Shown one piece after another: positions 3,001 through 32,721 of a stretch of 32,987 bases of DNA (its first letter is position 1; every line of letters begins with the position of its first letter). Source of the DNA: a virus; the IMG/VR virus record IMGVR_UViG_3300044796_000667, positions 1 through 32,987 of that record. The stretch is one strand, 5' to 3'. The position numbers were made by a program, and so were the translations under genes. Below the pieces are notes generated by a model. That model was not told the origin of the DNA. It saw only the letters and a program-made list of their open reading frames with translations, and ran no database searches.

Positions 3001-3282
3001 GATCTTCAGATCGCTATTCGATTTCGCAAGCTCTTTGTATTTATCGATCATCTGATCGATACCTGCGAGGCCTGCGCCGACTGCAATCCCAGCGCCCAAT
3101 CCACCGAGCGCATCCTTGGCTTTTTCCTTCAGACCTTCAAGCTTCGACTCAGCTTCCGTCGTATCGACGGCGATCTTGGCCTTCGCATTCTCAAGTTCTT
3201 TTTCTTTTTTGGCAATGGAATCAATGGCCGCATCCGCTCCGGATGCGTCCACCGATAATTTCGCCATTACTTCGATTGCCAT
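1..3282 (-). CDS. Tail tape measure protein
   Basis: A 1093-residue protein that sets tail length and probably helps DNA cross the cell envelope. The N-terminus is Ala/Lys/Glu-rich and helical. Hydrophobic stretches lie near residues 245-310 and 340-400, including the TANPIGLVIGAVVALAAG segment typical of tape measure proteins. A long charged coiled-coil region (about 450-950) follows. The C-terminus has a hydrophobic patch and the GVVGENGPEI motif common at the end of these proteins. It is the last gene of the minus-strand late operon inside the window, downstream of a tail chaperone with a frameshift site, the classical order. The stop codon touches the window edge, so baseplate or tip genes presumably lie further left. 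An alternative ATG sits five codons downstream. The family assignment is firm; the length-ruler role is known for the family. Confidence 0.93.
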   Translation of the reverse strand: MAIEVMAKLSVDASGADAAIDSIAKKEKELENAKAKIAVDTTEAESKLEGLKEKAKDALGGLGAGIAVGAGLAGIDQMIDKYKELAKSNSDLKIAIAGTGQSQEAQQEIFKQSQEEVDTLSQKYHVHEEAVRSVETAIVGIGGVTGAAKGKLTEIGLAFEQLNIPAKALKGVIAGANDPDSQQALDALQKKIGNLGPAFTNATTPAEKMDALYKRLQGTLGGMANLDPQLAAMEQFDETTKKMEASGGQLIVGFLSPVLPILTGLAGVMTSDVVPAISSVSDFINNNKVAVAVLAGGVGILTLALNANAVSTTAVTIAEKARAVATGVVTGAQWLLNAAMTANPIGLVIGAVVALAAGAVLLYNNVKPVHDAFDAIWTVLKGVAAFIGAFVSTEIASLIKAFQGVGSVLHGIVTLNFDEVKKGVTDVGSAVGSYATAGVAGVGAFKKSIDDSAKSLTDQKGKAKEAGDAGVDAAQAAAQAQADYQKAIEDANNAFDAQTKFAKAALDDAKTTYERQAEYVATGYANGQKLSDAQIAAYAAANVKLKAQAKDTQDELKRIAKEGQEFDGTEPKKKKGNENLLAEAKTLAEEKAKELETTLKLQAAERGVAYSSSDELAVEKEKIAVFNGQVDKLKLMTAEKGKYKEKTTLEQNVNTTQELTLEVKVHVDAEKVKEEFNKSISDLTKKKIEIGVLPKDEGFKLIDGEIDEIMQKMVALRANQIVNPNDLTIASKLNETEAQLIDLEHQRHDLGIQLDTDLAKAKIANMKDGTSKTVAELTLQFETDTQFARDAAAQGVQLTETQLLQKSALEAKYYADLAKLQQKNETDELKLETIGVNSAIALLQTELNAKQKFDELAYESKKLSLDKEQTANLAAYQKGTISAQEYNLKIAQLTQQRTDLETQKVQARWANEEKLAEQGYKAISDDLTKYIQAEIQAEVLRAAGNKVGADSEEAKANATMLGSVANTISGFTATIPIIGPVLGIAAGIALMEGFKGLEHLLGFETGGIGVVGENGPEIMGPTKDFSQMATQLVTSTARAVSQSMNGQNGSSRGSKHQFNVRVTGQTKAAGRDLQTVFNNEGLARQNESLLHTN

Positions 3283-3614: not shown

Positions 3615-5546
3615 TTACAGTCCCGTGATGGTGATTGGCCCGGTGTCCGGTGGACCGCCAAGCGTCGGTGGTGGCGGTGGACCGCCAGGCGGTGGCGCTA
3701 CGACGACGGTTGCCGGTGGCGGCGCAACGCCACCCGATCCCGAGCTGCCACTCGCCATTTCGATGAGCTTCAGTTCGGTATCGCCATCCGGTGTGCGCTT
3801 GACAGATAGCGTCGAGAACCGCGATACATCGCTTCCATTGATCGGCGGCGCGAGAATGCCAGGAAGGATATTGGCACCGCGCGAAAGAGGAAAGTCTGAA
3901 TAATCGAGAAGGCCGTACGTGAGCTGAGGCGGTGCGATCGGCTGTGGCTTCAGATTTATATCGATGCTTGCCGATTGGCCCCATGTTTCCATGCCAACGC
4001 CCTTCGAGGTCAGCGTAACGATCGCGCGCGGCCAGCCCCACCGATAGATGTTCTTCTGCGCATGAAGCGCCGCCCAGTCGCCATAGCCGTTCGTCGAAAT
4101 GTTATCCTCGCCGATCGTTGCCTCCGTGAGCGTGTTGCTCGCGTTCATCACCAAAATATCCCAGCCAGTTGTTTGCGGCAGGAGTATCATGCCCTGATAG
4201 GCAAAGCCTTCGAAGCGCAGAAGCGTCGTGTAACTTTCATCCTGACCGCCAAGCAGTGGGCTGTTCGCCACGCGCGGACCGGTCGAGCCGAAGACATCAT
4301 TCACCAATCCATCGTACGACGGTTCACTGATGGTGTATGTCGTGGCCCACGAGCCGCATGGATCGTATTCGATCGTCTCCACAAAGGGATCGAGCGCGAT
4401 CGTGAGCGGCGTTGCTTCGACATCGAGCAGAAGGAAGCGCGCCGATCCCTGGAATAATACGCTTTGAATGATGCCAGGATCGACATTCACATTCTGGATC
4501 TTGCTCGCCTGTTCGAGCGTGGGCAGCTCGCATTGCCAGTTGAGAAAGAACTCGCGGCACCATTCGGTCAATGCTTGCGCGAGATCGTTCCAATGATAAA
4601 GCGACGTGGACACCTGATCGGATGTGAGAGAGTGCGTCTGCGCTGTATTCTCATATTCGAAAAGCTGGCCGGAATTATTGATGTAGATCTGCGAGAGTTT
4701 TGTGGCTGGCGTCAGATCAGGTGGCTTCACGGTGATGCCAAGCTTGCCCCACGTTGGCGGCGGCGCGGCGAGTTGAAGCAATGCATCGCATCCACCGAGG
4801 CAATTTGCGTAGAGTTCAGCGGGAAGCATCTGCTGATCGGCCACGAGGAAGAACTGCGTGGGACACAAATTCCCCATGATCGCGAGCATCATATCGGATG
4901 CGCGCATGGTGGTACCGCTTCCCGGTCCACCGGTCCATCCGATCGATGCGTTGAGCATCGCCTTCACATGCGAGAAATTACTCCACGTCATCCACGGAAG
5001 GAATACCAATGCAAGCGTTCCATCGTGCGTGGCATTCTTGCGGATGACTTGCGTTCCACCGGTGAGCTGCTGGGAATTCACTTTTCCTTTGCAGGATTTG
5101 CGGTCGATAAAGCCCCAGAAGCAAAGCTTTTCCTTCACTGGCCATACCAGGCTTGCATTCGTGGGACGCACCGGCGCATCGTTAATATTCTGCACAAGCA
5201 CGATCTCGCACCACACATTCTTCGTCACGTCGCGCATACTTTCCACGACGATCTGAAGCGCGGGATCTGCAAGGAAATCTAACTCGATCGACGCATAGCG
5301 TGGAACTCCCTGCTCGAACTCGCTCTCGCTCTCGACCTGAAACGGCGCGATCGACTGAAGCAATTTCGAATCAAGCACCGTTGGCACGATCTGATTCGCA
5401 TACGACCAATGATCCACCGGCGTGAAGCCGTAAGAATTGGTATCGTACATCTTCACCGGCAGCGCGATCGGCACGCTATACAAGCGCACCTGGTAGGTGC
5501 CCTCGCGCGCGCGCGCCGTGATGAGAATGTGAAAGTCCTTGCTCAT
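3615..5546 (-). CDS. Large tail structural protein of unknown type, Pro-rich C-terminus
   Basis: A 643-residue protein between the tail assembly chaperone and the tape measure gene. Its position suggests a tail or baseplate-hub component, but I do not recognise the family. The body is mixed alpha/beta with many aromatic residues. The last 45 residues are a Pro/Gly-rich linker (APPPATVVVAPPPGGPPPPP) ending in DTGPITITGL and TAA. The linker followed by an in-frame Ig-like segment suggests that the natural product carried an exposed C-terminal domain. The start ATG overlaps the stop of the chaperone extension by four bases (ATGA), showing translational coupling. Confidence 0.75.
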   Translation of the reverse strand: MSKDFHILITARAREGTYQVRLYSVPIALPVKMYDTNSYGFTPVDHWSYANQIVPTVLDSKLLQSIAPFQVESESEFEQGVPRYASIELDFLADPALQIVVESMRDVTKNVWCEIVLVQNINDAPVRPTNASLVWPVKEKLCFWGFIDRKSCKGKVNSQQLTGGTQVIRKNATHDGTLALVFLPWMTWSNFSHVKAMLNASIGWTGGPGSGTTMRASDMMLAIMGNLCPTQFFLVADQQMLPAELYANCLGGCDALLQLAAPPPTWGKLGITVKPPDLTPATKLSQIYINNSGQLFEYENTAQTHSLTSDQVSTSLYHWNDLAQALTEWCREFFLNWQCELPTLEQASKIQNVNVDPGIIQSVLFQGSARFLLLDVEATPLTIALDPFVETIEYDPCGSWATTYTISEPSYDGLVNDVFGSTGPRVANSPLLGGQDESYTTLLRFEGFAYQGMILLPQTTGWDILVMNASNTLTEATIGEDNISTNGYGDWAALHAQKNIYRWGWPRAIVTLTSKGVGMETWGQSASIDINLKPQPIAPPQLTYGLLDYSDFPLSRGANILPGILAPPINGSDVSRFSTLSVKRTPDGDTELKLIEMASGSSGSGGVAPPPATVVVAPPPGGPPPPPTLGGPPDTGPITITGL

Positions 5547-8703: not shown

Positions 8704-10719
8704 TTATAGCTCGGCTATCGTAAATGTCAAACCGCCATAATTTGAATTGCTACCTCCAGAGGTAACCTGCAAATCGAACCAATATGGAGTGCCAGCCGTC
8801 AATCCAGTGACAATAGCCGCTATCGTCATAGAATGATTGCCTGAACCGGGATTATAGATGGTTCCGAAAGTTGTCCCTATGGCGGCGTCACCCAACGCAG
8901 GGGCTGAGCCTCCGCCGTAAGCTAAAGCCGCAGAAGAGGCATAAGTAGCATCACCGTAAAAACCGGTGACAATAACAAGAACAGGAGTACCCTTGCTGGG
9001 TGTAAATGCCGCATTAGCACCAAGCATACAAGTACTTGGCATAGAGGTCGTAGCGGCTATCGCACCTCGATCATATTGCGCAGTTGCACCCGACACTAAA
9101 TTCGCCGCGCTGATATTACCGGTAACTGCAAGGTTACCGCCAGAAATCGTGGCAGCCGGTGTGCCGGTTGCATCGTCGTAGAACTTAATTCCACCCGATG
9201 CGCGCACATTGAACTGATGCGCAGCCGTGGCCGTGAGTGGTGCGGTTCCGTCGCAGAACGTGAAGGTTCCGTTGAAGCCGCCATCGTTCGCCGTGGTACC
9301 GAGCGCCACGCTCACCGTGCCGGACGTTACATTCGTGCTGCCCGAGTTCAGCACCTGGAACCCTGTGTTGGTGTTCGATGCACCGTTGACGATGCTCGAT
9401 GAGTTCACCGTGCCGCCCGTGACATTGATGTTGCCACCGGCCGAAATATTATTCAAAACCGAAAGCGCACCGGTGTTCAGCGTCATGCCAGGCGTCGAGC
9501 CGGTATTGTCTAAGAAGACGAAGCCATTCGAGAACCGCGCAGTGAACTGATGTGCAAGCGAGTCGGCAGTTGCCGCAGAGTTATCACCAAGGACGAAGGA
9601 ATTGTCATTGGTGGCCGTGGCTGCCGAACCCATCGCGATACTATCCCTTCCAGCCGCAACATTTCCCTCGCCTGCTGTGAATGAGTAATTACCAGATGAG
9701 GTGTTCGAGTTACCCGTGCTGAACGATTGAGTTCCGCTGACGGTATTGCCGCGCCCGATTGCGACGGAACCGCCCACGCCATCACCCGTTACGGCATTAT
9801 ATTTGCCGAATGCAGCGCTTCCGACGCCCGAGATCGTGTTCGTGGAATCGCCGACAAGAAGCGTCGTGCCGATCTCGCCCGTCCCATCGACATTGAAACT
9901 TGCGCTGGTTTGCAGCGAAGTTCCATTGTTAATACCTGCGCCCGTGAAATTGGCAGCAGAGATATTACCAGTGATAGCAAGATTGCCACCGCTTAATGTG
10001 GCTGCGGCTGTGCCAGTTGCATCATCATAAAGCGTAATGCCATTGGATGCGCGCACAACGAATTGGCCGGAAGCGGTATCGGCAGTTGGAGCCGATCCAT
10101 CGCCAATGACGAAGGAATTCGCATTGTTGGCCGTAGCGCTCATACCAAGCGCGAACGAGCGATCGCCAGAGGCGGTGTTGCTCTTGCCAAGCGCAAAAGA
10201 CTGATGCCCCGCCGACGTGTTGCTCTCACCGATCGCGGCAGAGAGATTGCCGGAAACGTTGTTATTATAGCCACTCGCGAGATCGTGAGTGCCACTGATG
10301 GTATTATCCGTTCCCTGAACGAGACCAGGCGAGCTGATGGTGTTATTCGTCGCGCCGATCATCGCGCCACCAGCCATCGTGCCGACGCCGCTGATGTTGA
10401 AATTCGCTCCCGACTGAGGCGATGTTTGATTGAGGATCGCAGAGGGAGATAATGCTTCCACGGCTGTGGTGAAATCACTTACCTGGCTGGATGTAATGGA
10501 GCCGATCGCCGTTCCAGGAATCGATCCATCCGTGATCGTGCTTGCATCGAGATTCTTCCACGCGGAGCCGTTCCATTCGCGCGCGGTTCCGAGCGTGGTA
10601 TCAAAATAAAGCTGGCCCACAACCGGTGAGCCAGGTGCGGAAGAAAGGTTCTGCAATGCGCCGTTCACGATCGCATTACCGTTAAGATTTACATCGACTT
10701 CGATATTCTCTTGTGCCAT
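8704..10719 (-). CDS. Tail fibre or spike with YadA-head-like repeats
   Basis: A 671-residue repetitive protein, probably a trimeric receptor-binding fibre. After an N-terminal segment with VGQLYFDTTLGTAREWNGSAWKN, common in phage fibres, come two blocks of about 14-residue repeats (SFALGKSNTASGDR type). These resemble the left-handed beta-roll of YadA-type adhesin heads. Three copies of a longer module follow the pattern HQFxVRASxGIxxYDDATGT...GGNLAxTGNISAAN, at roughly residues 215-260, 385-430 and 500-545. The last 125 residues are different (GTPVLVIVTGFYGDATYASS) and likely form the globular tip. That stretch is visibly more AT-rich than its neighbours, which suggests tip exchange. The gene sits in the late operon; there is no SD before the ATG. 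Confidence 0.8.
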   Translation of the reverse strand: MAQENIEVDVNLNGNAIVNGALQNLSSAPGSPVVGQLYFDTTLGTAREWNGSAWKNLDASTITDGSIPGTAIGSITSSQVSDFTTAVEALSPSAILNQTSPQSGANFNISGVGTMAGGAMIGATNNTISSPGLVQGTDNTISGTHDLASGYNNNVSGNLSAAIGESNTSAGHQSFALGKSNTASGDRSFALGMSATANNANSFVIGDGSAPTADTASGQFVVRASNGITLYDDATGTAAATLSGGNLAITGNISAANFTGAGINNGTSLQTSASFNVDGTGEIGTTLLVGDSTNTISGVGSAAFGKYNAVTGDGVGGSVAIGRGNTVSGTQSFSTGNSNTSSGNYSFTAGEGNVAAGRDSIAMGSAATATNDNSFVLGDNSAATADSLAHQFTARFSNGFVFLDNTGSTPGMTLNTGALSVLNNISAGGNINVTGGTVNSSSIVNGASNTNTGFQVLNSGSTNVTSGTVSVALGTTANDGGFNGTFTFCDGTAPLTATAAHQFNVRASGGIKFYDDATGTPAATISGGNLAVTGNISAANLVSGATAQYDRGAIAATTSMPSTCMLGANAAFTPSKGTPVLVIVTGFYGDATYASSAALAYGGGSAPALGDAAIGTTFGTIYNPGSGNHSMTIAAIVTGLTAGTPYWFDLQVTSGGSNSNYGGLTFTIAEL

Positions 10720-11211: not shown

Positions 11212-11253
11212 ATGGATCAGTGATGATGGATCAGCGATGATGGATCGGCGATG
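11212..11253. repeat. 14-bp tandem repeat, three copies, before a fibre gene start
   Basis: Three adjacent copies of ATGGATCAGTGATG, differing at one or two positions, fill the space upstream of the minus-strand start at 11210. A further near-perfect copy (13 bases) lies at 11642-11654, directly upstream of the start at 11640. Read on the minus strand, both starts are thus preceded by CGCTGATCCAT-like sequence instead of a Shine-Dalgarno. It may be a slippage product or a translation-associated element. Confidence 0.8.
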
Positions 11254-11259
11254 ATGACG

Positions 11260-12697: not shown

Positions 12698-14293
12698 TTA
12701 CGACGGTTTCACGCACGAGATCGCGTCGTAATTGACGAACTCGTAATCGCAATAGATCGTGAAGATGATGAGCAAGCCTTGCGGCACGGTGAGGCGCTGC
12801 ACCGTGATGCCGGTGTTACCCTGCGAACCGGTGACCATCGAGAAGACGAAGTTTGCAAGCCGCGTCTGGATGGCGTTCTGGGTCGCAATATAGTTCACCG
12901 GTTCCAGCGGGCGACCTTCGAATTTCTTCTCCACGCCATCGATGACGGCACGGATAGAGTCATAAGTGCGCTCGCCCATTTCCTTCTCGAAGCCGCGCTG
13001 ATCGGCGGTTGCGCAGATGATGGGCACATCATCCGGGAAGAACCGTGGGTTCGTGTTGATACCCGCATCGATGAGGGTATCGAACATCAGTTGCCGCTTG
13101 AAATTACCGGTCGAATGGTTTCCATTGTCGTACATGGAATTATTCGTGGCGGCGGTGAGCAGCTGGCCGGATGGGATCGTAAACGTCCCGTTGCCGTTCT
13201 GCGCGAGATACATCCAGCCTTTATTGAGATTGGTGAACGTCGTCTCGGTCGCATTGCCGGAATCGGCGGTTCCATTGAAACCGAGATCGACAAGATCATT
13301 CGAGAACTGCGTGCTGAACATCGCGAGCAGCTCCGCTTCCAGGCCAGGCAGATTGCTCTGATAGTTCATCTGCACTTCGTCCGGAATGAGCAGATATAAG
13401 TTGTTCTTGCGGTTGGTCACTTCGAGCGATTTGTTCACCGTTGTGGAACCAACATCGCCGGACGGCCACCCTGGTGGCTGGCGCTGGATCTTGCGCGCCG
13501 AAACGTCCGCGACAAGAAGCTCCGCGCTCACACGGCCAACCGGCTTCGCTTGGATCTTTTTCAGAAACTCCGATTGATCGACAACGGCATTGAAAAGCTC
13601 GCGCCCGAGTTCGGGATTGAGCGTTCCGCCAGGTGCGAAATCGGTTGGCGAGATCAGTCCGCCCTTCGAGACGCTGCGAATGCCGGCATCGTTAAGCCCG
13701 AGGATGCTCTTGGCAAGCTCGCCACGGCGCTTCTCTTTGAGCGCTTCGCGATCGGCAACCGTGGCCGGCGCTGCATCCTTGATCGAGATCTTATGGATCT
13801 TCGCGCTGTCAGGAACTTGCGCGGTCTTTGTGATGGCGGTTCCGCCTTTTCCGCTTTGGGATTTATTCCCTTGTCCAGGATCCGACATGCCATCGTCGGG
13901 CGGCTGTGTTTCGTTGCCGGCCGGTGCGTTATCGCCGGTTGGATTGGCGGGATCGCCAAGCTCGGGGTTTGGTCCATCGGCAGAAACCATCTTGGCTGCG
14001 AGGTCCGGCACGGCGATCTTCAACACTTTCGCAAGCGCCGTGATATTATCCGCTGTGAGTTCCAGCGTAGCCTGCCCGTTTTCCCAGCTGATGTACTCCT
14101 GCACATCGGTCAGGCCGAGCGCGGTCATCACGGCTTGCTCTGCAACGCCGTTCTCGATGCGGATCTGTTTGACGGCTTCACCCACATCTTTTTCAAGCTT
14201 GTAGGTTTTTTCGAGCGTGCCGTTCTTTTGCATCGTGTCCATCGATGCGCCGTTGGCAAGCAAATTTAAAAATTTTCGGAGAGAATGTTTCAT
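12698..14293 (-). CDS. Major capsid protein, P2 gpN-like, with N-terminal scaffold-like domain
   Basis: A 531-residue protein. From about residue 185 it follows the P2-type major capsid family (HK97 fold): LNPELGRELFNAVVDQSEFLKKI near 225-247, a conserved FNGTADSG...NLNKGW at 339-360, and later the EGRPLEPVNYI segment. The first 180 residues are different. They contain helical repeats (VMTALGLTDVQEYISWENGQ, NITALAKVLKIAVPDLAAK) and a Gly/Pro/Asp-rich linker (105-150), like the scaffolding part of phage protease-scaffold proteins. The prohead protease encoded two bases upstream would be expected to remove this segment on maturation. The protein forms the icosahedral shell. Confidence 0.85.
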   Translation of the reverse strand: MKHSLRKFLNLLANGASMDTMQKNGTLEKTYKLEKDVGEAVKQIRIENGVAEQAVMTALGLTDVQEYISWENGQATLELTADNITALAKVLKIAVPDLAAKMVSADGPNPELGDPANPTGDNAPAGNETQPPDDGMSDPGQGNKSQSGKGGTAITKTAQVPDSAKIHKISIKDAAPATVADREALKEKRRGELAKSILGLNDAGIRSVSKGGLISPTDFAPGGTLNPELGRELFNAVVDQSEFLKKIQAKPVGRVSAELLVADVSARKIQRQPPGWPSGDVGSTTVNKSLEVTNRKNNLYLLIPDEVQMNYQSNLPGLEAELLAMFSTQFSNDLVDLGFNGTADSGNATETTFTNLNKGWMYLAQNGNGTFTIPSGQLLTAATNNSMYDNGNHSTGNFKRQLMFDTLIDAGINTNPRFFPDDVPIICATADQRGFEKEMGERTYDSIRAVIDGVEKKFEGRPLEPVNYIATQNAIQTRLANFVFSMVTGSQGNTGITVQRLTVPQGLLIIFTIYCDYEFVNYDAISCVKPS

Positions 14294-14295
14294 GT

Positions 14296-14892
14296 TTATG
14301 AACGTGAGTGAAGTGTGATTTTCGCGCTCTTGATGACGCGCGCTTTAGAAGAATTTTTGATGATGCGAGCGGTCGAAGGTTCCGCTTGTTTGCGCTTTTC
14401 GTTGTCGGGTAATGCAGTTCCCGCCAGCGAGAGGCCACGCAATTCGCCGGATTTGACGCGCATCTTCGTCATATCGTCGGGCTTGATGGCTACGAGCCAC
14501 GCGCCATCTTTGGCTTCGGGATAGTTTTTCGCTTCGCCATTCTTGATGAAGCTTTCTACTACACCGCCATCGATCGGCGTGTAATCGTGCATGGTGTCGA
14601 CCATGCGGACCTTGCCTTTGATGAGGAAATCGTGAGCGGCCCGCTCGATCGTATCGGAATCCGCCCAATCGCCCTGCGTATCGACGGAATCCGGTTCATA
14701 CACGACGCCATAGATGATCCCCTTCTCCACATCTGCTTTCGCAAATTGAATCGGGAATTCAAATTGGATATGCGAGCTGTCCGCCGATTTATAGATCATC
14801 GGCTTCCGGTTCGCACCATCATCCACGACGGAGATGAAGTTGACGTTGAGATTGAGTAGCTTTGCCATGCGATGGTGTAAAGCTGCGTCCAC
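14296..14892 (-). CDS. Prohead protease, XkdF-like
   Basis: A 198-residue serine protease that trims head proteins during capsid maturation. The family pattern GVVYEPDSVDTQGDW at 62-76 is followed by a candidate catalytic His in MHDYTPIDGG (H102) and a Ser in GLSLAGTA (S155), as in XkdF-type proteases. There is no scaffold extension at the C-terminus; the capsid gene carries one instead. The start used here is GTG at 14892, preceded at 10 bases by GGGAG. An ATG eight codons in (14868) is also possible, and TTCTTTTG overlapping the GTG resembles a Bacteroidota -7 element, which would favour the later start. It is the first gene of the minus-strand late operon. Confidence 0.8.
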   Translation of the reverse strand: MDAALHHRMAKLLNLNVNFISVVDDGANRKPMIYKSADSSHIQFEFPIQFAKADVEKGIIYGVVYEPDSVDTQGDWADSDTIERAAHDFLIKGKVRMVDTMHDYTPIDGGVVESFIKNGEAKNYPEAKDGAWLVAIKPDDMTKMRVKSGELRGLSLAGTALPDNEKRKQAEPSTARIIKNSSKARVIKSAKITLHSRS

Positions 14893-14911
14893 AAAAGAAT
14901 TCTCCCATTCC

Positions 14912-14996
14912 CACCGGTAACTTTAATACCGGTACTCTACCGGTAGTGTACCGGTACGGGTAGTGTACCGGTACTCTACCGGTATTAAAGTTACCG
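14912..14996. promoter_or_regulatory. Divergent late control region: array of TACCGGTA palindromes
   Basis: Five perfect TACCGGTA palindromes start at 14927, 14938, 14949, 14966 and 14977, with a partial sixth at 14912. Their spacing is 11, 11, 17 and 11 bp, close to helical turns. A 19-bp unit, two palindromes joined by CTC, occurs as an exact direct repeat (14927-14945 and 14966-14984). The whole block is also bounded by a perfect 20-bp inverted repeat (14915-14934 with 14977-14996). It lies in the 148-bp gap between the divergent late operons, so it is most likely the binding site of a late activator or repressor acting on both promoters. I saw no other TACCGGTA copies in the window. Confidence 0.85.
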
Positions 14997-15040
14997 CTTT
15001 GCTTCTGAGCAATTCACACCGCGCGGAAGGTTAAGCTCAC

Positions 15041-15307
15041 ATGGATCACACATTCAAAATCGGCGACGTCGTTCGCTTCAAATCCGGCTCGCCGGACCTC
15101 ACGGTGCTTTCGATCGGGCCGCAATCGGTTTCCGTGGCGTGCTACGATGAGGAGGCTGTAGCCAAGGGCATCGCAATAAATTACAATGGCACCTATTTTC
15201 ACGGCGACCTGGAACTTGTGGCCGGCGTGAACACGGAAGCGAAGGCCAACCGCAGTAAATCGAAGAAAAAGGCTGCAACCGTCATCAAGGGCGATAAAGA
15301 GGATTAA
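15041..15307 (+). CDS. Small DUF2158/YodC-like protein
   Basis: An 88-residue protein. The N-terminal 60 residues match the pattern of small YodC-type proteins: FKIGDVVRFKSGSPDLTVLSIG, a cysteine-containing strand VACYDEE, then an acidic FHGDLELV. A Lys-rich tail follows (SKSKKKAATVIKG). These proteins are common in phages and hosts, with unknown function. It has a fair SD (GGAAGG, 10 bases before ATG) and heads the plus-strand late operon. Its stop overlaps the next start (TAATG), implying coupling. Confidence 0.7.
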   Translation: MDHTFKIGDVVRFKSGSPDLTVLSIGPQSVSVACYDEEAVAKGIAINYNGTYFHGDLELVAGVNTEAKANRSKSKKKAATVIKGDKED

Positions 15308-18113: not shown

Positions 18114-19556
18114 ATGCCGTCAACATTCCAACAGTGGGTAAAAGAAGGTCAGGCATCACTCGCTAAAACGAGTTATCCCGCTACGCGCAAGCTCGAACCA
18201 TTGCCTGCAACCGCGCCAACGTCCGCACTCACAACCTCACGCCGCCATCCGATGGCACCGATCGATTCTGACGGCATGGCGAAGCTTTCCCTGCTATCCA
18301 CGAGCGAGATCCTTCCTGGTCTCGAACGGATGATGAAGGCGGAGATGAAAGTTGAAAAGTTCTTGGAGGACTATCCCGCTATCAACACGGTCCTCATCGA
18401 CCGGTTGGGAGCTGCGGTGAGTCCATTCGATCCGTACGTTCTTCTCACGCTGGTCGATAACTCGGGCTATCTCAGTGCCGCGATCACTGCGAAGGTTGCC
18501 GTGACGGTTGGGCAAGGCTTCGACGGCGATCCGGAACTTCTCGCGCATCTTCAAATGGCGAACGAGAACGAAACCTTTCAGGACGTGCTCGATCAATGGG
18601 CGCTCGATGTCGAGATCTATGGCAATAGTTACATCGATACCGTCCGCACGGCCACAACGGCCAATTTTTACAATGTCGCCGCACTCCTGACGCGCGTGAA
18701 GCCGCTGCGTGGATCGAATTACAAAGAGTTCGTGCATTATGCCTACGGGCTGGGAATGCTGCTTGCTTCGACAGTGGAAGAATTTCAGCCGTCGATCAAT
18801 CGCGGCATGAGGCAATTCCGCCTGGCAACGCGGCGCGGCAACCGGTATTATGGCGATCCCTCGTGGATCTCTGCCAAGAAAGCGCTCGTCATCAATTACG
18901 ACATCCTCTCGCTTGCAGAAAAGTTCTTCGAGAACTCCTTCATGGGCGATAAGATGCTTGTCATCAAGGGTGCCGATTATACCGATGACGATGTGGAGAA
19001 CATGCGTAACTATTTGATGCAAATGGGTATGGGCATCGATAACGCGCACAAACTGCTCGTGTTGCAAGTCGGGCCGCAGGAAGATGTGACGATGAACAAT
19101 CTGAACGTCGATATTAAAGATGCTTCGTTCCAGCCGCTCCGCGCCGATAACAAAGAAGAGATCGTGGCCGCCGCAACCGTGCCGCTCTCGATCGTTGGCG
19201 TGCAAACGCCAGGGAAGCTTGGGAATTCGGCGGAGATCCGTGAGTCGCTGCGGCTCTTCAAGATCACGTATGCGAACGCGCGCCAGAAAAAATACGAAGC
19301 ATGGTGGCAAAATCTGTTCCGCGATGCGGGCTTGCCGAAGTGGTATACGTTCCGCCTGAAGACGATCGATACCTTGCTCGAAGATTCCGACATTCCATCG
19401 CTCGCGCAGGCAGTCTCTGCCGGCTTCATGACGACCGAAGAAGCGCAGGAGCAATTGAACTCCGAAAAGCAAGCTCTCGCAAAGCAACGCTTCATGCCCG
19501 AAACGCTCGTGCAGCAACTCATAGCATTCAGAGAGGAGTTGCAGAATGGCAAATAG
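18114..19556 (+). CDS. Portal protein, P2/PBSX-type
   Basis: A 480-residue protein forming the portal ring through which DNA enters the head. It follows the P2/PBSX portal pattern. An N-terminal disordered part is followed by WALDVEIYGNSYIDTVR, then RYYGDPSW, then KFFENSFMGDKMLVIKG (the FFxNGaxP-like motif). The DNNLNVDIKDASFQPLR and VPLSIVGVQTPGKLGNSAE motifs come next, and a helical C-terminus with EDSDIPSLAQAV. Terminase genes follow immediately, giving the packaging order portal, small and large terminase. The small terminase start overlaps this gene by 11 bases. Confidence 0.88.
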   Translation: MPSTFQQWVKEGQASLAKTSYPATRKLEPLPATAPTSALTTSRRHPMAPIDSDGMAKLSLLSTSEILPGLERMMKAEMKVEKFLEDYPAINTVLIDRLGAAVSPFDPYVLLTLVDNSGYLSAAITAKVAVTVGQGFDGDPELLAHLQMANENETFQDVLDQWALDVEIYGNSYIDTVRTATTANFYNVAALLTRVKPLRGSNYKEFVHYAYGLGMLLASTVEEFQPSINRGMRQFRLATRRGNRYYGDPSWISAKKALVINYDILSLAEKFFENSFMGDKMLVIKGADYTDDDVENMRNYLMQMGMGIDNAHKLLVLQVGPQEDVTMNNLNVDIKDASFQPLRADNKEEIVAAATVPLSIVGVQTPGKLGNSAEIRESLRLFKITYANARQKKYEAWWQNLFRDAGLPKWYTFRLKTIDTLLEDSDIPSLAQAVSAGFMTTEEAQEQLNSEKQALAKQRFMPETLVQQLIAFREELQNGK

Positions 19557-20016: not shown

Positions 20017-20285
20017 AATGCTTTCCAATGATATGCCCGAAAGGGTTGGTGGAAGAAGGCGTTACGCCATCCGAGTTCTACGAGCATGGCGATGAGCGCT
20101 GCGAACTTACGCTCGATGATCCGCCGCGCCATGATCGCTATACCATGAGAATTAAATGCGATAAGTGCGAAGCGATCGGACATGCGACTCTCACAACCGA
20201 GAATGATGAATACGTGAGCGCAAAAAAGTTAACGGTCTATTTGGCATACGCAAGTGAACTCCCTCATCAAGCGCCGGAAGCGTAA
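20013..20285 (+). CDS. Small hypothetical protein with a CxxC pair
   Basis: A 90-residue acidic protein of unknown function fitted between the terminase subunits. It overlaps the small subunit by four bases (ATGA) and the large subunit by 32. It contains RIKCDKCEAIGHATLT, one CxxC that could bind zinc together with other cysteines at residues 3, 8 and 30. Its position makes a packaging accessory role possible, but nothing shows this directly. Confidence 0.65.
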   Translation: MKCFPMICPKGLVEEGVTPSEFYEHGDERCELTLDDPPRHDRYTMRIKCDKCEAIGHATLTTENDEYVSAKKLTVYLAYASELPHQAPEA

Positions 20286-21828
20286 GCAGTTTAGCGACCA
20301 GGCATGGGCGCGAGAGATGGCGGTTATTCGCCAATCGCTCGATCGGCTCACGCTCTTCGACGATTTGAAGTCAAGCAACGAACGTGTTGCGGAGTGCGAA
20401 GAGAACTTTTTCCTCTTCTGTAAAACATACCTGCCTCATTACTTCACGGCTGCCACGCAAGCAGATTTCCATGAAGAGTTGCTGCAAATGGCGCAGACCG
20501 AAGAGATCCCTGGTGCTGCCGCATGTCCTCGCGGTTTCGCGAAGAGCACGATCGTCAGCTTTGCGTTGCCGCTTTACTCATTACTCTATGAGAAGAAGAA
20601 GTTCATCGTGCTCTGCATGGAGACCGAAGAAAAAGCCATCATGCAGGTATGGCGCATCCTTCTTGAGTTGCAATTCAACCGTCGCATCATTAACGATTTC
20701 GGTGCGCTCATCAGCAAGGACAATGCCCGTGGCGATTTTACCACGATCTTAACCGGCGATCGCAAAACGACAACGCGCGTCTATGCGATGGGCGCGGGAA
20801 TGTCAGCGCGTGGACTTATCAACGCGCAATACCGGCCCGATCTCTTCATCTGCGACGATATGGAGTCGCGCTCGCTTGCTCGTAACCCAAAACGTGTTGC
20901 AAAGCTGCTCGAACTCATTCTCGCGGATTATATCGGCTGCATGTGCGCGGAACATTGGACGTTCATCGTTGTCGGCACGATCATTTGCATCGGCTCGATG
21001 CTGGAACAGTTGATGGAGAACGAGTCCTTCAACCGTTTGCGGTACAAAGGACTTGAAACCGATGCGAAAGGGAACGAATACTCGCGCTGGCCGGAAGTGC
21101 ATTCCGTCATTACGCTACGCCGATTGCGTACCTACATGGGTCCGACGAAGTTTTCTGCGGAGATCCAGAACGATCCACAGGAGGACGAAGGAAAGTTCAA
21201 GCAAAAATGGTTTAAGCTCCATTGGGATACACTCCCGATCGGCATAAACAGAAAAGAGATCATTCTGCAAGTCGATCCCAGCTACAGCGATACCGGCGAC
21301 AATAAAGCGATGGATTTAGGCTTGCGGTACCAGCATACCAATCAAGCTGCCGATTTTGGGAAATGGCGCTATTCCGATGGCACATTGATACCCGAAGGCG
21401 ATTACACTATTCACTTGGAACTCTTTAATCGTAAATGTTCGATCGATGAGATGATCGTCACGATCTACAGCATTTACCGGCGCTGGAACCCAAAGCAAAT
21501 CCGCATCGATGGTACCTACGCGCAGAAGATCATTTTTCAGCGCGAGTTTGCACGCTATGAGGCCAATGTGGAATATGGCCGCCTGCCACTCTTCTTCATC
21601 GATTTACACGAGTCGAAGCATGAGCGTATCCTTGCAATGGAATCGCCGCTCGAACGCGGACTCCATCTGTGGCCGTTGCCTTCGAAGGACTATCAAGCGA
21701 CAGTGCAACAATTTGTGCATTACGGTGAGCCGGGTGTGAACGACGACGGCCCCGACGTCGTGGCTGCGCTCGATGAATACCTCAAGCCACGCAAGCGCAA
21801 GGCCAAGCTGTTCACCGGTTCGAGGTAA
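20254..21828 (+). CDS. terL: Terminase large subunit (ATPase and nuclease)
   Basis: A 524-residue motor that pumps DNA into the prohead and cuts it. The ATPase shows a Walker A variant CPRGFAKST (91-99) and Walker B DLFICDD (196-202). The nuclease (RNase H-like) part has Asp in ILQVDPSYSD (D341), in IRIDG (D419) and in DDGPDVVAALD (D501). The predicted start is GTG at 20254; ATG at 20317 is a later alternative. It is the last plus-strand late gene before the oppositely oriented lysogeny operon. The 23 bases to the convergent neighbour hold no clear terminator. Confidence 0.9.
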   Translation: MNSLIKRRKRKQFSDQAWAREMAVIRQSLDRLTLFDDLKSSNERVAECEENFFLFCKTYLPHYFTAATQADFHEELLQMAQTEEIPGAAACPRGFAKSTIVSFALPLYSLLYEKKKFIVLCMETEEKAIMQVWRILLELQFNRRIINDFGALISKDNARGDFTTILTGDRKTTTRVYAMGAGMSARGLINAQYRPDLFICDDMESRSLARNPKRVAKLLELILADYIGCMCAEHWTFIVVGTIICIGSMLEQLMENESFNRLRYKGLETDAKGNEYSRWPEVHSVITLRRLRTYMGPTKFSAEIQNDPQEDEGKFKQKWFKLHWDTLPIGINRKEIILQVDPSYSDTGDNKAMDLGLRYQHTNQAADFGKWRYSDGTLIPEGDYTIHLELFNRKCSIDEMIVTIYSIYRRWNPKQIRIDGTYAQKIIFQREFARYEANVEYGRLPLFFIDLHESKHERILAMESPLERGLHLWPLPSKDYQATVQQFVHYGEPGVNDDGPDVVAALDEYLKPRKRKAKLFTGSR

Positions 21829-22995: not shown

Positions 22996-23022
22996 AGAAA
23001 ATAATTATTTTTAGGAAAAAAA

Positions 23023-23048
23023 TCGGCAAACCTCTTGACTTTTGCCGA
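23023..23048. promoter_or_regulatory. Candidate repressor operator (inverted repeat over early -35)
   Basis: TCGGCAAA and TTTGCCGA form a perfect 8-bp inverted repeat with a 10-bp spacer, 18 bp apart centre to centre. The repeat brackets TTGAC of the early promoter, so a bound dimer would block it. It lies 28 bp upstream of the repressor start, so autoregulation is also possible. The assignment to the adjacent repressor is inferred. Confidence 0.7.
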
Positions 23049-23065
23049 ATAATTGCGTATCTTTG
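23035..23065 (+). promoter_or_regulatory. Early promoter, Bacteroidota-type
   Basis: TTGAC at 23035 is followed, 18 bases later, by TATCTTTG (23058-23065). This matches TTG ... TAnnTTTG, the promoter type of Bacteroidota primary sigma factor. It would start transcription near 23072 and read the early operon, about 50 bases before the ATG at 23121. The inverted repeat at 23023-23048 overlaps its upstream element. Confidence 0.72.
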
Positions 23066-23120
23066 TGTTAACAGTTTACGCGAACACAAATATACGAAGA
23101 ATTTTCGGACTACTTAACAA

Positions 23121-25101: not shown

Positions 25102-25932
25102 ATGCCACGCTTAACATCATCGCAGATCAAATGTATGATCCCCACGCAGTCCGCATTGGAGCAGCGTGAGATCGTACTCCTCAAAGGCGGTTCCAATGGC
25201 AAAACGCGCATTTCCTTCGAAATGCAGGAAGCCCTTGGCTACCAGGACTCGATGGGCCGGTACCGCACGAAAGCGCATCCCGAGAATCCCACCGTCGAAT
25301 TCGTGAACATTATCATTCCCGGCTATTATGCCGTGCATGAAACATACTTCCAGCGCGCCATCCTGCGCGAGATCACCGGCGATGCGCCACGCGGATCGCT
25401 CGATGTGCAGGCACGATTCAGCGCACTACTCAAAGATTATGCGAACCCCACGCTCGATCGCGGTCCGCGCGTGATCTGCGTTGTGATCGATAACGCTGAA
25501 ACGATGCCGGCCAAAGCATTCGGCATCGTGAAGTCGCTGAACGAAAAGCGCGATACCGTCATCATTCGCGAAACAAAGGAGCGCCGGTGGATCGGTTGTG
25601 CATTCCTCATCAGTGGGCATTACCACAAGCTGAAAGCGCCACTGAGCTTCTATCGCCATGCAACGGAGATCATGGTCGGCAAGATCGAACGTTCCGAGAT
25701 CCGCGAAGTGATCGCGCACCGGTTCCCATCCGAAGCGATGCACTTCGATGAAGCAAGTTTGGAACGCCTCGCGCAGCTTGCGACGACCAACGATCTTTTT
25801 GCGGCCGTGCGTAACTCCGTCCGGCTTCGCCGCGAGAACCGCACCAAGATCATCGACACGCGCATCGTCGAGAATGCGCTCAAACAATTCACGCAGCCCT
25901 TCGAGCTTGCTCCATCACTTCAAACGTACTAA
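25102..25932 (+). CDS. MuB-like transposition ATPase with degenerate ATP-binding motifs
   Basis: A 276-residue AAA+-type protein expected to deliver target DNA to the transposase. Walker A region reads LLKGGSNGKTR (27-36), one residue shorter than the standard loop. Walker B reads VICVVIDNAE, with Asn where most relatives have the catalytic Glu (D130-N131). FLISGHYHK resembles the MuB FLxGNH sensor strand. The C-terminal domain ATTNDLFAAVRNSVRLRREN resembles the MuB C-terminal domain. It lacks the N-terminal helix-turn-helix of MuB; a similar domain is encoded separately at 30931. The gene precedes the transposase, the opposite of Mu order. Confidence 0.8.
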   Translation: MPRLTSSQIKCMIPTQSALEQREIVLLKGGSNGKTRISFEMQEALGYQDSMGRYRTKAHPENPTVEFVNIIIPGYYAVHETYFQRAILREITGDAPRGSLDVQARFSALLKDYANPTLDRGPRVICVVIDNAETMPAKAFGIVKSLNEKRDTVIIRETKERRWIGCAFLISGHYHKLKAPLSFYRHATEIMVGKIERSEIREVIAHRFPSEAMHFDEASLERLAQLATTNDLFAAVRNSVRLRRENRTKIIDTRIVENALKQFTQPFELAPSLQTY

Positions 25933-29332: not shown

Positions 29333-29514
29333 TGGACGACAAGCAATCGCGAGCACTTTTGGGTGATACTATCGCTCAGGCGAAAGAGCGATTGACATTC
29401 ACGCGCGTTCGAACACTTACCAGTGAGCGCGTGACCGCCATCCAAAGGGCTCTCGATAATCTTCTCTTGCAACTTCCACAATTCGGAGAGAATACAGTTT
29501 ATGAGCAAGAGTGA
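29332..29514 (+). CDS. Small early hypothetical protein (60 residues)
   Basis: A short helical, charged protein (LLGDTIAQAKERLTFTRVRT). Its ATG overlaps the Gam stop (TGATG), and it overlaps the next gene by 14 bases. Tight coupling supports its reality; function unknown. Confidence 0.6.
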   Translation: MDDKQSRALLGDTIAQAKERLTFTRVRTLTSERVTAIQRALDNLLLQLPQFGENTVYEQE

Positions 29515-29971
29515 ACGTCCGAATCCTACTTACACCGAAGCCGTGCGGCTCGATGCGTTGGCGCATACTCCGTTAGGGGAAGACGACTTTGGGCAGTCGT
29601 CAGGGTATCTCCAGCCATCGCCGCCGCGAATGCTACGCTTGAGCGAGTCTCAGCTGGAAGCATGGCACAAGGTGCGAGGAAAGATTCAGGACGTTCACCT
29701 GCTCATTTTATCGGTGCTCACGCGATGCGGCGAGGGCTGCATTCGTTCCGTGCATGATGAGACCGGCATCGAAACGAGCACCATCAGCGCGCGCATGTTC
29801 GATCTGAAAAAGCTCGGACTCATCGAGCCGGTGATGCAAGCCGATGGAACACAAAAGCGCATTCAATACACCGTGCGCGGCAAGAACAGCAGTGGCGATG
29901 CCTGGAAGGCCCGCGACGACTGGAAAGAATTTCTGAAACATGTGCAGGGCTATCTTGGAATTTTATTATGA
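29501..29971 (+). CDS. Winged-helix regulator
   Basis: A 156-residue protein. Residues 65-130 form a winged helix-turn-helix: VHLLILSVLTRCGEGCIRSV, HDETGIETSTISARMFDLKK, and a wing QKRIQYTVRG. This is typical of MarR-type or similar DNA-binding proteins. It could control late or early genes. The first 60 residues are polar and likely disordered. Overlaps both neighbours. Confidence 0.7.
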   Translation: MSKSERPNPTYTEAVRLDALAHTPLGEDDFGQSSGYLQPSPPRMLRLSESQLEAWHKVRGKIQDVHLLILSVLTRCGEGCIRSVHDETGIETSTISARMFDLKKLGLIEPVMQADGTQKRIQYTVRGKNSSGDAWKARDDWKEFLKHVQGYLGILL

Positions 29972-30930: not shown

Positions 30931-31254
30931 ATGGAGAAGAAGATAAGCTCCCCACTATCATCCGATGAATTGCGCGCGATCGTGCGAGAGAAAAAGATTT
31001 CGCTTGGGAAACTATCTTCCGAGATAAATTATTCAGTCACCACCTTAAGCTTGTGGCTCCGTGGCATCTACCCTAACGATGCCACGCTTCTTGAATGTGC
31101 ACTCTCGCGATGGATCGCTTCCGAGAACCTATCGCCGCGCGATCGCAGAAAGTTTGCTTATATCACTGATCTTCTCGATAATGCCGAAGACAAACACGCA
31201 CTCCTCGACACCATCCTACGATCCACCACGAGCCGAACGAACAAAGCAACCTGA
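30931..31254 (+). CDS. Helix-turn-helix protein resembling the MuB N-terminal domain
   Basis: A 107-residue protein. Residues 13-52 (RAIVREKKISLGKLSSEINY, then SVTTLSLWLRGIYPNDATLL, then SRWIASE) fit the HTH that begins MuB-type proteins (TxSxxLxGKYxGD...RWLE style). The MuB-like ATPase of this phage lacks that domain, so this gene may supply it in trans. A general Cro-type regulator is the alternative. A palindrome lies directly upstream. Confidence 0.6.
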   Translation: MEKKISSPLSSDELRAIVREKKISLGKLSSEINYSVTTLSLWLRGIYPNDATLLECALSRWIASENLSPRDRRKFAYITDLLDNAEDKHALLDTILRSTTSRTNKAT

Positions 31255-31435
31255 TAGGCATCCCGAATGCCCTCATTGCCATTCACGGATGGGATCGTAT
31301 GTCAGGGTCACGCAGCCCTGGCGATCGGTGTGGCAACGGGTGCGCGTGTGCCTCTGCTGCCGAAAGGAATTCGAGAGTGAAGAACGATACTTTGTGCGAC
31401 AACATGAAATGGAGGAACTCCGTGGACCTGGGTAA
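31181..31435 (+). CDS. Zinc-ribbon protein, possible regulator
   Basis: An 84-residue protein. Cys pairs C30/C33 (CPHCHSRM) and C57/C60 (CLCC) with basic residues between them form a zinc ribbon, as in NrdR-like domains and in small phage transcription or translation factors. ATG 31181 is chosen as the only ATG close upstream. It overlaps the preceding gene by 74 bases, so the true start may be later. It precedes the MuF-like head gene. Confidence 0.55.
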   Translation: MPKTNTHSSTPSYDPPRAERTKQPDRHPECPHCHSRMGSYVRVTQPWRSVWQRVRVCLCCRKEFESEERYFVRQHEMEELRGPG

Positions 31436-31565: not shown

Positions 31566-31772
31566 ATGCGAATTTCTTTAATACCCGATTCTAAACAAAT
31601 TCGATTTCTTGTTGAGGCCGATACCTCTTCAGATGTCGCATTACTCTCTCTCTTCATTGGGCCCAATGTTGGCCCAAAAATAAAAATCGATTCATCTTGC
31701 TTTTCCTGTGACGTTAGAGGAACAACGTCATTCTCTTTCTCAGCAATCAATGACAACACTCCAACGGCTTGA
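31566..31772 (+). CDS. Small hypothetical protein (68 residues)
   Basis: A short beta-rich, AT-rich reading frame, starting three bases after the upstream stop. It has no known motif and overlaps the beginning of the MuF-like gene by 23 bases or more depending on the start chosen there. Real coding is likely from packing but not certain. Confidence 0.45.
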   Translation: MRISLIPDSKQIRFLVEADTSSDVALLSLFIGPNVGPKIKIDSSCFSCDVRGTTSFSFSAINDNTPTA

Positions 31773-32721
31773 ATTAAAGTACTATTCTGATGAAGTGCTC
31801 CTTGCGCTGATCGACAAGATGCTTTTAAAAAAAGCAGTTGCGAACGATCCTCACGCGCCTATCCACCAGGAGCTTATGCTTCGCGCAGCACTCTACGATG
31901 TGTGGGATGCGCAGGTAAAGAGCGCCGTGCAAGCGATGCACCATTATTCGATCTTGGGTTCGCTCATGGGCGGTCCGTCGATCGCAGAGGTGCCGAAGAT
32001 CATGCAGGTGCTATCGCACTCGCTCTCGGGACCTGCTATCGCGCAGCGCGTGCAGCACGTCGCGCAGCTGACGATCTCGCAGGGCTTCCAAAAAGGGAAG
32101 GACACCGTGAATCAGGATTTTGCCCAGGCGAAAAAGCGCCTGGTGAAAATGAACGATATTATGTTCGGCGCGGTGTTCGGACTGACGGAGCAGCATGCGC
32201 TCGAAGCGCTCACGCAGCAGCTGATGATCGCAGCCGGAAGTTTTTGGGACGATCAGTTGCAGGAGTCGATCAAGAATGAGGTGGAAGGATTTTTCTCGGG
32301 TACCATCACGCGCGACGATCTATCGGCAAAGCTGATGTCGATGGTGAACGATCGTCTGCTTGCCAGCGATGCCGGTACGCTATCGAAAAGTTACTTTGAC
32401 AATTTGTCAGTACACATCATCAATTCATCGCGCAATATTGGCTCGACGTATCAGCTGAAGTCGCTTGGCGTGACGCATTACACGCTCTACAATCCGCGCG
32501 ATAAGCGAACTAGTCCGATCTGCCAGGCTGTTACGAATGGGCAGGTGTTCGAGATGGCGCATGCGGAAGATACGGTCACAGCGAAGCTGCAAGCTCGCAC
32601 GACTGAGGATCTGAAGCAATCGGTGCCATTCCTGACGCCAGAGACGGCCAGCAGCGCGAAGGGACCCGTCCCGCCGCTCCACTGGCCGAAATGCAGAACG
32701 AAAATGCACGGGGTATTTTGA
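31750..32721 (+). CDS. MuF-like head morphogenesis protein
   Basis: A 323-residue minor head protein. The C-terminal MuF-type domain reads NSSRNIGSTYQLKSLGVTHY, then RDKRTSPICQAVTNGQVF, and ends PPLHWPKCRTKM, the typical PPxHxxCRc finish. A helical N-terminal part of 200 residues precedes. ATG 31750 is chosen; a GTG at 31708 is possible. The usual place for this gene is next to the portal gene, but here the two are 12 kb apart with the early region between them. Confidence 0.8.
   Translation: MTTLQRLELKYYSDEVLLALIDKMLLKKAVANDPHAPIHQELMLRAALYDVWDAQVKSAVQAMHHYSILGSLMGGPSIAEVPKIMQVLSHSLSGPAIAQRVQHVAQLTISQGFQKGKDTVNQDFAQAKKRLVKMNDIMFGAVFGLTEQHALEALTQQLMIAAGSFWDDQLQESIKNEVEGFFSGTITRDDLSAKLMSMVNDRLLASDAGTLSKSYFDNLSVHIINSSRNIGSTYQLKSLGVTHYTLYNPRDKRTSPICQAVTNGQVFEMAHAEDTVTAKLQARTTEDLKQSVPFLTPETASSAKGPVPPLHWPKCRTKMHGVF

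Follow-up and report, generated by a model that had tools for sequence, protein, structure and literature searches.

Among the described systems closest to the locus reported here are the late control regions of phages P2 and Mu. In a P2-like phage, two divergent late promoters occupy the same coordinates and have the zinc-finger protein Ogr as their activator (PMC3931495). In P2 itself, we found that the gap from the terminase gene (P) to the scaffold gene (O) measures 173 bp, compared with 172 bp at our locus, and that a single central annotated activator site (3057-3087) serves both pO and pP; the centre of that site is 56 and 55 bp away from the start sites 3016 and 3127. In phage Mu, late transcription comes from four separate weak promoters (lys, I, P and mom), activated by the dimeric phage protein C bound upstream of −35 (PMC4461284).

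Our analysis concerns a viral-contig record of 32,987 bases, hereafter called the window. It starts and stops exactly at ORF stop codons, which suggests that it is a provirus trimmed at gene borders. Its genes include those for a MuA-like transposase and for Gam, and the place of MuB is taken by an ATPase (at 25102, with a weak AAA match); judging by this gene content, the phage is probably transposable and in this respect like Mu.

Two late operons diverge from a short gap

The following features define the setting of the locus:

14869-15040, no strand: divergent intergenic gap of 172 bp, which contains the array
14296-14868, minus strand: head maturation protease, gene 1 of the head/tail operon, ATG at 14868 (phrog_3017, E 1.6e-36)
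12698-14293, minus strand: major head protein, same operon (phrog_1623, E 2.8e-18)
15041-15307, plus strand: small DUF2158-like protein, gene 1 of the plus-strand operon (PF09926)
18114-19556, plus strand: portal protein, plus-strand operon (phrog_12, E 2e-19)
20254-21828, plus strand: terminase large subunit, final gene of the plus-strand operon (phrog_38, E 1.8e-55)

The minus-strand operon opens with the protease and the major head protein, continues with tail genes and has the gene for the tape measure protein at its far end. The plus-strand operon comprises the genes for the DUF2158 protein, a transglycosylase, the portal protein and the terminase, and thus carries portal, terminase and lysis functions. 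These gene assignments agree with an earlier note on this DNA, made from its letters, which had placed the array between a head/tail operon on the minus strand and a neck/lysis/packaging operon on the plus strand. Within the minus-strand operon we also observed a tandem 14-bp repeat, ATGGATCAGCGATG, in 3.2 copies (11212-11256). A minor head gene at 31708-32721, called MuF-like by motif only, with no match in Pfam or PHROG, is located where the early region ends and stands outside the two late operons.

The gap holds a mirror-symmetric array of octamers

Four overlapping elements make up the repeat structure of the gap:

14912-14999, no strand: symmetric array of eight TACCGGTA-type sites, five exact and three degenerate
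14915-14996, no strand: 82-bp quasi-palindrome with arms of 41 nt, 83% complementary, dyad at 14955/14956, outer 20 bp perfect
14927-14945, no strand: 19-bp unit TACCGGTACTCTACCGGTA, copy 1
14966-14984, no strand: 19-bp unit TACCGGTACTCTACCGGTA, copy 2

Exact TACCGGTA octamers begin at 14927, 14938, 14949, 14966 and 14977, confirming the five palindromes at steps of 11, 11, 17 and 11 bp that the earlier note had described. A script search added three degenerate copies, CACCGGTA at 14912, TACGGGTA at 14955 and TACCGCTT at 14992. The eight sites together are offset by ±3, ±14, ±25 and ±40 bp from a dyad at 14955.5, about which their steps (15, 11, 11, 6, 11, 11 and 15 bp) are mirror-perfect; the 17-bp step between exact octamers is in fact 6 + 11 bp, because the degenerate copy at 14955 sits between them. 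The two copies of the 19-mer are identical, and a perfect 20-bp inverted repeat (14915-14934 and 14977-14996) bounds the block, both as had been claimed. The arms of the quasi-palindrome are 83% rather than 100% complementary because the 3-bp spacers (CTC, GTG on one side; GTG, CTC on the other) come in mirrored order without being complementary.

The quasi-palindrome scored 27 (matches minus mismatches), compared with 12 for the runner-up in the window; in 20 simulated windows, the highest scores ranged from 9 to 15. In total, TACCGGTA occurs six times in the window against an expectation of 0.04, a count that was seen in 0 of 100 shuffles. The sixth copy, at 9117-9124 within a large ORF (8704-10719), corrects the former statement that the octamer has no other copy in the window. 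No ORF of at least 50 aa in the window covers the array, and its dyad lies in mid-gap, with 87.5 bp separating it from the protease start codon (14868) and 85.5 bp from the start codon on the other side (ATG at 15041). The array is real, unusually symmetric and far beyond chance.

A repeat of this kind could also act at the level of RNA, as an element or terminator, if transcripts across it folded into a long hairpin. The predicted fold is strong on both strands (z about −7) and there is one weak terminator-like match. However, any inverted repeat yields such a fold, a terminator is not needed between divergent genes, and the best Rfam match fell far under threshold; of all the readings weighed here, we give this one the least credence. 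For a cruciform or RNA function, nothing spoke in favour besides the repeat itself.

Promoter elements in the late gap and the early switch

A promoter scan of the late gap returned no sigma-70-like promoter, and the TAnnTTTG-like elements found there, although on the correct strands, are all imperfect, as expected for promoters that depend on an activator. The early switch region contains two face-to-face TAnnTTTG promoters, one for the repressor gene and one for a Ner-like gene (23045-23100), inside an inverted arrangement CGTATCTTTGTGTT...AACACAAATATACG. We take the TAnnTTTG form to be the promoter type of the Bacteroidota group, and for this reason our guess for the host is a member of that group.

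These regions bear on whether the array might be a repressor operator, through which a repressor, either that of lysogeny (22378, minus strand) or another, would silence both late operons in the prophage. The symmetric position between divergent operons would fit such an operator equally well, short palindromes in an array would lend themselves to cooperative repression, and the window does encode an XRE/S24 repressor. Yet TACCGGTA, with up to one mismatch allowed, is absent from the early switch region (22996-23120), where the repressor would be expected to act; the two promoters there are surrounded by a different inverted arrangement; and the late-gap promoters look weak, so that repression would be less needed. 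We therefore consider a repressor operator unlikely; with no octamer in its own switch region, the lysogeny repressor is also the less likely binder of the array.

Dyads at the same place in distant phages

Searches for close relatives yielded none, either with proteins (protease, head, terminase and transposase) in viral contigs or with DNA among known phages. One contig, L004, is distantly related in its protease and portal, and there the protease gene lies on the strand opposite to the endolysin, terminase and portal genes. Its gap contains a 58-bp quasi-palindrome built from two palindromes that differ from TACCGGTA. Four further contigs were found via the portal (L102, L103, L105 and L106), and in each of them the portal gene is followed by a terminase-sized gene, both heading away from the gap. 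The facing gene across the gap was confirmed as a protease in three of the four; the contig of the other, L105, ends there. All four gaps carry a conserved dyad of the CACTC-N16-GAGTG type before the portal gene:

L102, 9670-9695: CACTC-N16-GAGTG-type dyad
L103, 9670-9696: CACTC-N16-GAGTG-type dyad
L105, about 205-231: CACTC-N16-GAGTG-type dyad
L106, 1722-1748: CACTC-N16-GAGTG-type dyad

The octamer itself was present in none of these five late gaps (0/5). The check suggested in the earlier note, a search of related phages for TACCGGTA arrays at this location, thus favours the location but not the octamer, as dyads do occur there in distant contigs but are made of other sequences. In most protease-aligned loci whose upstream genes were readable, the protease gene and the large genes upstream of it shared a strand, as is usual, and among the protease-aligned loci only L004 showed a divergent packaging operon. 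Taken together, these comparisons suggest that a late control gap recurs by place across distant phages, whereas its binding sequence does not.

Tandem short palindromes at 11-bp steps are reminiscent of centromere iterons, which is a point for a partition-like site, and the packaging genes nearby would suit a site of DNA packaging or cleavage; in either case, the gap would not hold an operator of transcription. Partition genes were, however, not recognised among the proteins scanned, and the gap dyads of the relatives and of P2 match transcription control, which makes such a site highly improbable in our judgement.

The octamer also occurs in replication-initiator-like genes

Arrays of TACCGGTA in viral contigs could be sorted into three groups, namely coding repeats of low complexity, repeats between genes, and replication-initiator-like genes. 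The third group includes L013, L116, L124, L129 and L137, as well as L145 and the genome contig L021. Pfam cut-offs for phage O or HTH_36 were passed by L116, L124 and L129, and the initiator assignment of L013, L021 and L137 rests on weak matches or reading by eye. A Staphylococcus phage gene annotated as encoding a replication initiation protein likewise has a TACCGGTA array inside it. Several of the arrays in initiator genes, which belong to unrelated phages, are spaced at 11-, 22- or 23-bp steps. With only this octamer counted, TACCGGTA gives the impression of an iteron word that recurs among O/HTH_36-type initiators.

The array in the window could accordingly be a replication iteron cluster, bound by an O-, HTH_36- or DnaD-type initiator and marking an origin, a former origin or an incompatibility site. 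It resembles O-type iterons in that the octamer comes in clustered, often helically phased copies, and L013 has the 19-mer TACCGGTACTCTACCGGTA too. By contrast, O-type iterons lie inside the initiator gene, whereas the window array is outside any gene, in the late gap, and a phage with a MuA-like transposase and Gam would be expected to replicate by transposition. Because no initiator of the phage O, HTH_36 or DnaD type was recognised among the early-region proteins of the window that we scanned, we hold an origin to be quite unlikely. It is more doubtful still that TACCGGTA is recognised both by replication initiators and by a late switch, whether because an initiator-related winged-helix protein turned into a late activator or because replication and late transcription are coupled.

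Several other repeats came to light in these searches. L117 (1232-1399, apparently intergenic), L123 and L138 contain six to nine copies of TACCGGTA at exact 20-bp steps. In L020, a Clostridiales genome, five copies of TACCGGTAATC at 11-bp steps lie between genes (3888-3939); such arrays are rare, being found in 2 of 398 genomes sampled from the phylum of that genome, one of them L020's own. L010 contains direct repeats of TGATACCGGTA at 11-bp steps (420-490), located between a gene that by eye resembles an ArpU-type regulator and HNH- and terminase-like genes, and these repeats may represent a late promoter array of a further phage.

Other leads were set aside. A 26-bp match to a Phocaeicola plasmid (H25) contained one imperfect octamer in apparently coding sequence and was at chance level. 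Many viral-contig arrays of at least three octamers lay in low-complexity coding repeats and were uninformative. An ACTTT spacer common to the window and Staphylococcus phage arrays was given no weight, because the match had been selected by similarity. A literature search for the octamer returned only unrelated papers among the matches listed.

Candidate binding proteins

Three candidate regulators are encoded at the end of the early operon:

31181-31435, plus strand: 84-aa zinc-ribbon protein with a CX2C...CX2C motif, the best candidate binder
29501-29971, plus strand: winged-helix protein, an alternative candidate (weak HTH matches)
30931-31254, plus strand: HTH_3-like protein, an alternative candidate (weak HTH matches)

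The 31181 protein, whose gene lies near the end of the early operon, showed 29% identity to P2 Ogr over 55 aa in a single pairwise BLASTP comparison (E 8e-4). The Pfam Ogr_Delta model (PF04606) matched no window protein at E 10, that of 31181 included. Foldseek listed NrdR and RNA polymerase zinc ribbons for it, with non-significant E-values. The structure model for the 29501 protein was not of usable quality. The window regulators and early proteins scanned gave no match to the C/Mor activator family. Our best guess from these sequence comparisons is that the zinc-ribbon protein would be the array binder.

A putative bidirectional late switch

We think it probable that the array serves as the operator in a late control region acting in both directions, by which both late operons would be switched on together. 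In favour of such an operator, the array is non-coding, non-random, symmetric and central between divergent operons, and the corresponding gap contains dyads in distant relatives and an annotated site in P2. The binder would be a DNA-binding protein of the phage, dimeric or oligomeric, produced towards the end of the early phase; it would occupy the eight symmetric octamer sites cooperatively and bring RNA polymerase to two weak promoters pointing away from the array. The head/tail operon on the minus strand and the neck/lysis/packaging operon on the plus strand would then start together, by activation rather than repression. A point against this reading is the MuF-like gene at 31708, which belongs to neither operon and lacks an array site, so that not all late genes could depend on the array.

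Further findings count against a late switch. The other TACCGGTA arrays were found in replication-initiator genes or coding repeats and none in late gaps, no close relative was found, and the TGT-N12-ACA site of P2 is absent from the dyad. The late gap does have one off-centre match to this site, at 14876-14893, and the whole window has only one more, at 31707-31724; this count is not above chance. The second match is located at the start of the MuF-like gene.

If the late-switch reading is correct, one 88-bp element would drive the two late operons of a transposable phage whose host group is little known, acting as a compact and symmetric bidirectional promoter. It would also mean that a divergent late control gap of the P2 style recurs in distant phages with a lineage-specific binding sequence.

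Comparison with known late switches

The phage probably shares with Mu a transposable lifestyle, as suggested by the MuA- and Gam-like proteins, but the late promoters of Mu are separate, whereas the window has one divergent site. The P2 PP/PO region resembles the window in layout. There, portal/terminase and scaffold/capsid operons diverge from a gap of nearly equal length, with one central site acting both ways; in the window, capsid/protease and portal/terminase operons diverge, and the gap has a central dyad, which may likewise serve two promoters. The two differ in the site itself, which in P2 is a single element of the TGT-N12-ACA type bound by Ogr and in the window consists of eight symmetric TACCGGTA-type octamers. 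They differ further in that the window, unlike P2, yielded no Ogr_Delta match, the 31181 protein being only weakly similar in pairwise comparison; in that the lysis genes are on the opposite side relative to P2; and in the host promoter type, which in the window resembles that of the Bacteroidota group.

The earlier note had proposed an undescribed bidirectional late switch. The bidirectional part has good support by analogy, through the shared site annotated in P2 and the dyads of distant relatives, but 'undescribed' does not hold, because P2 PP/PO is already a switch of the same kind. Most likely, the switch of this phage belongs to the known P2 kind, and its site is an unusual binding design that would make it a new version.
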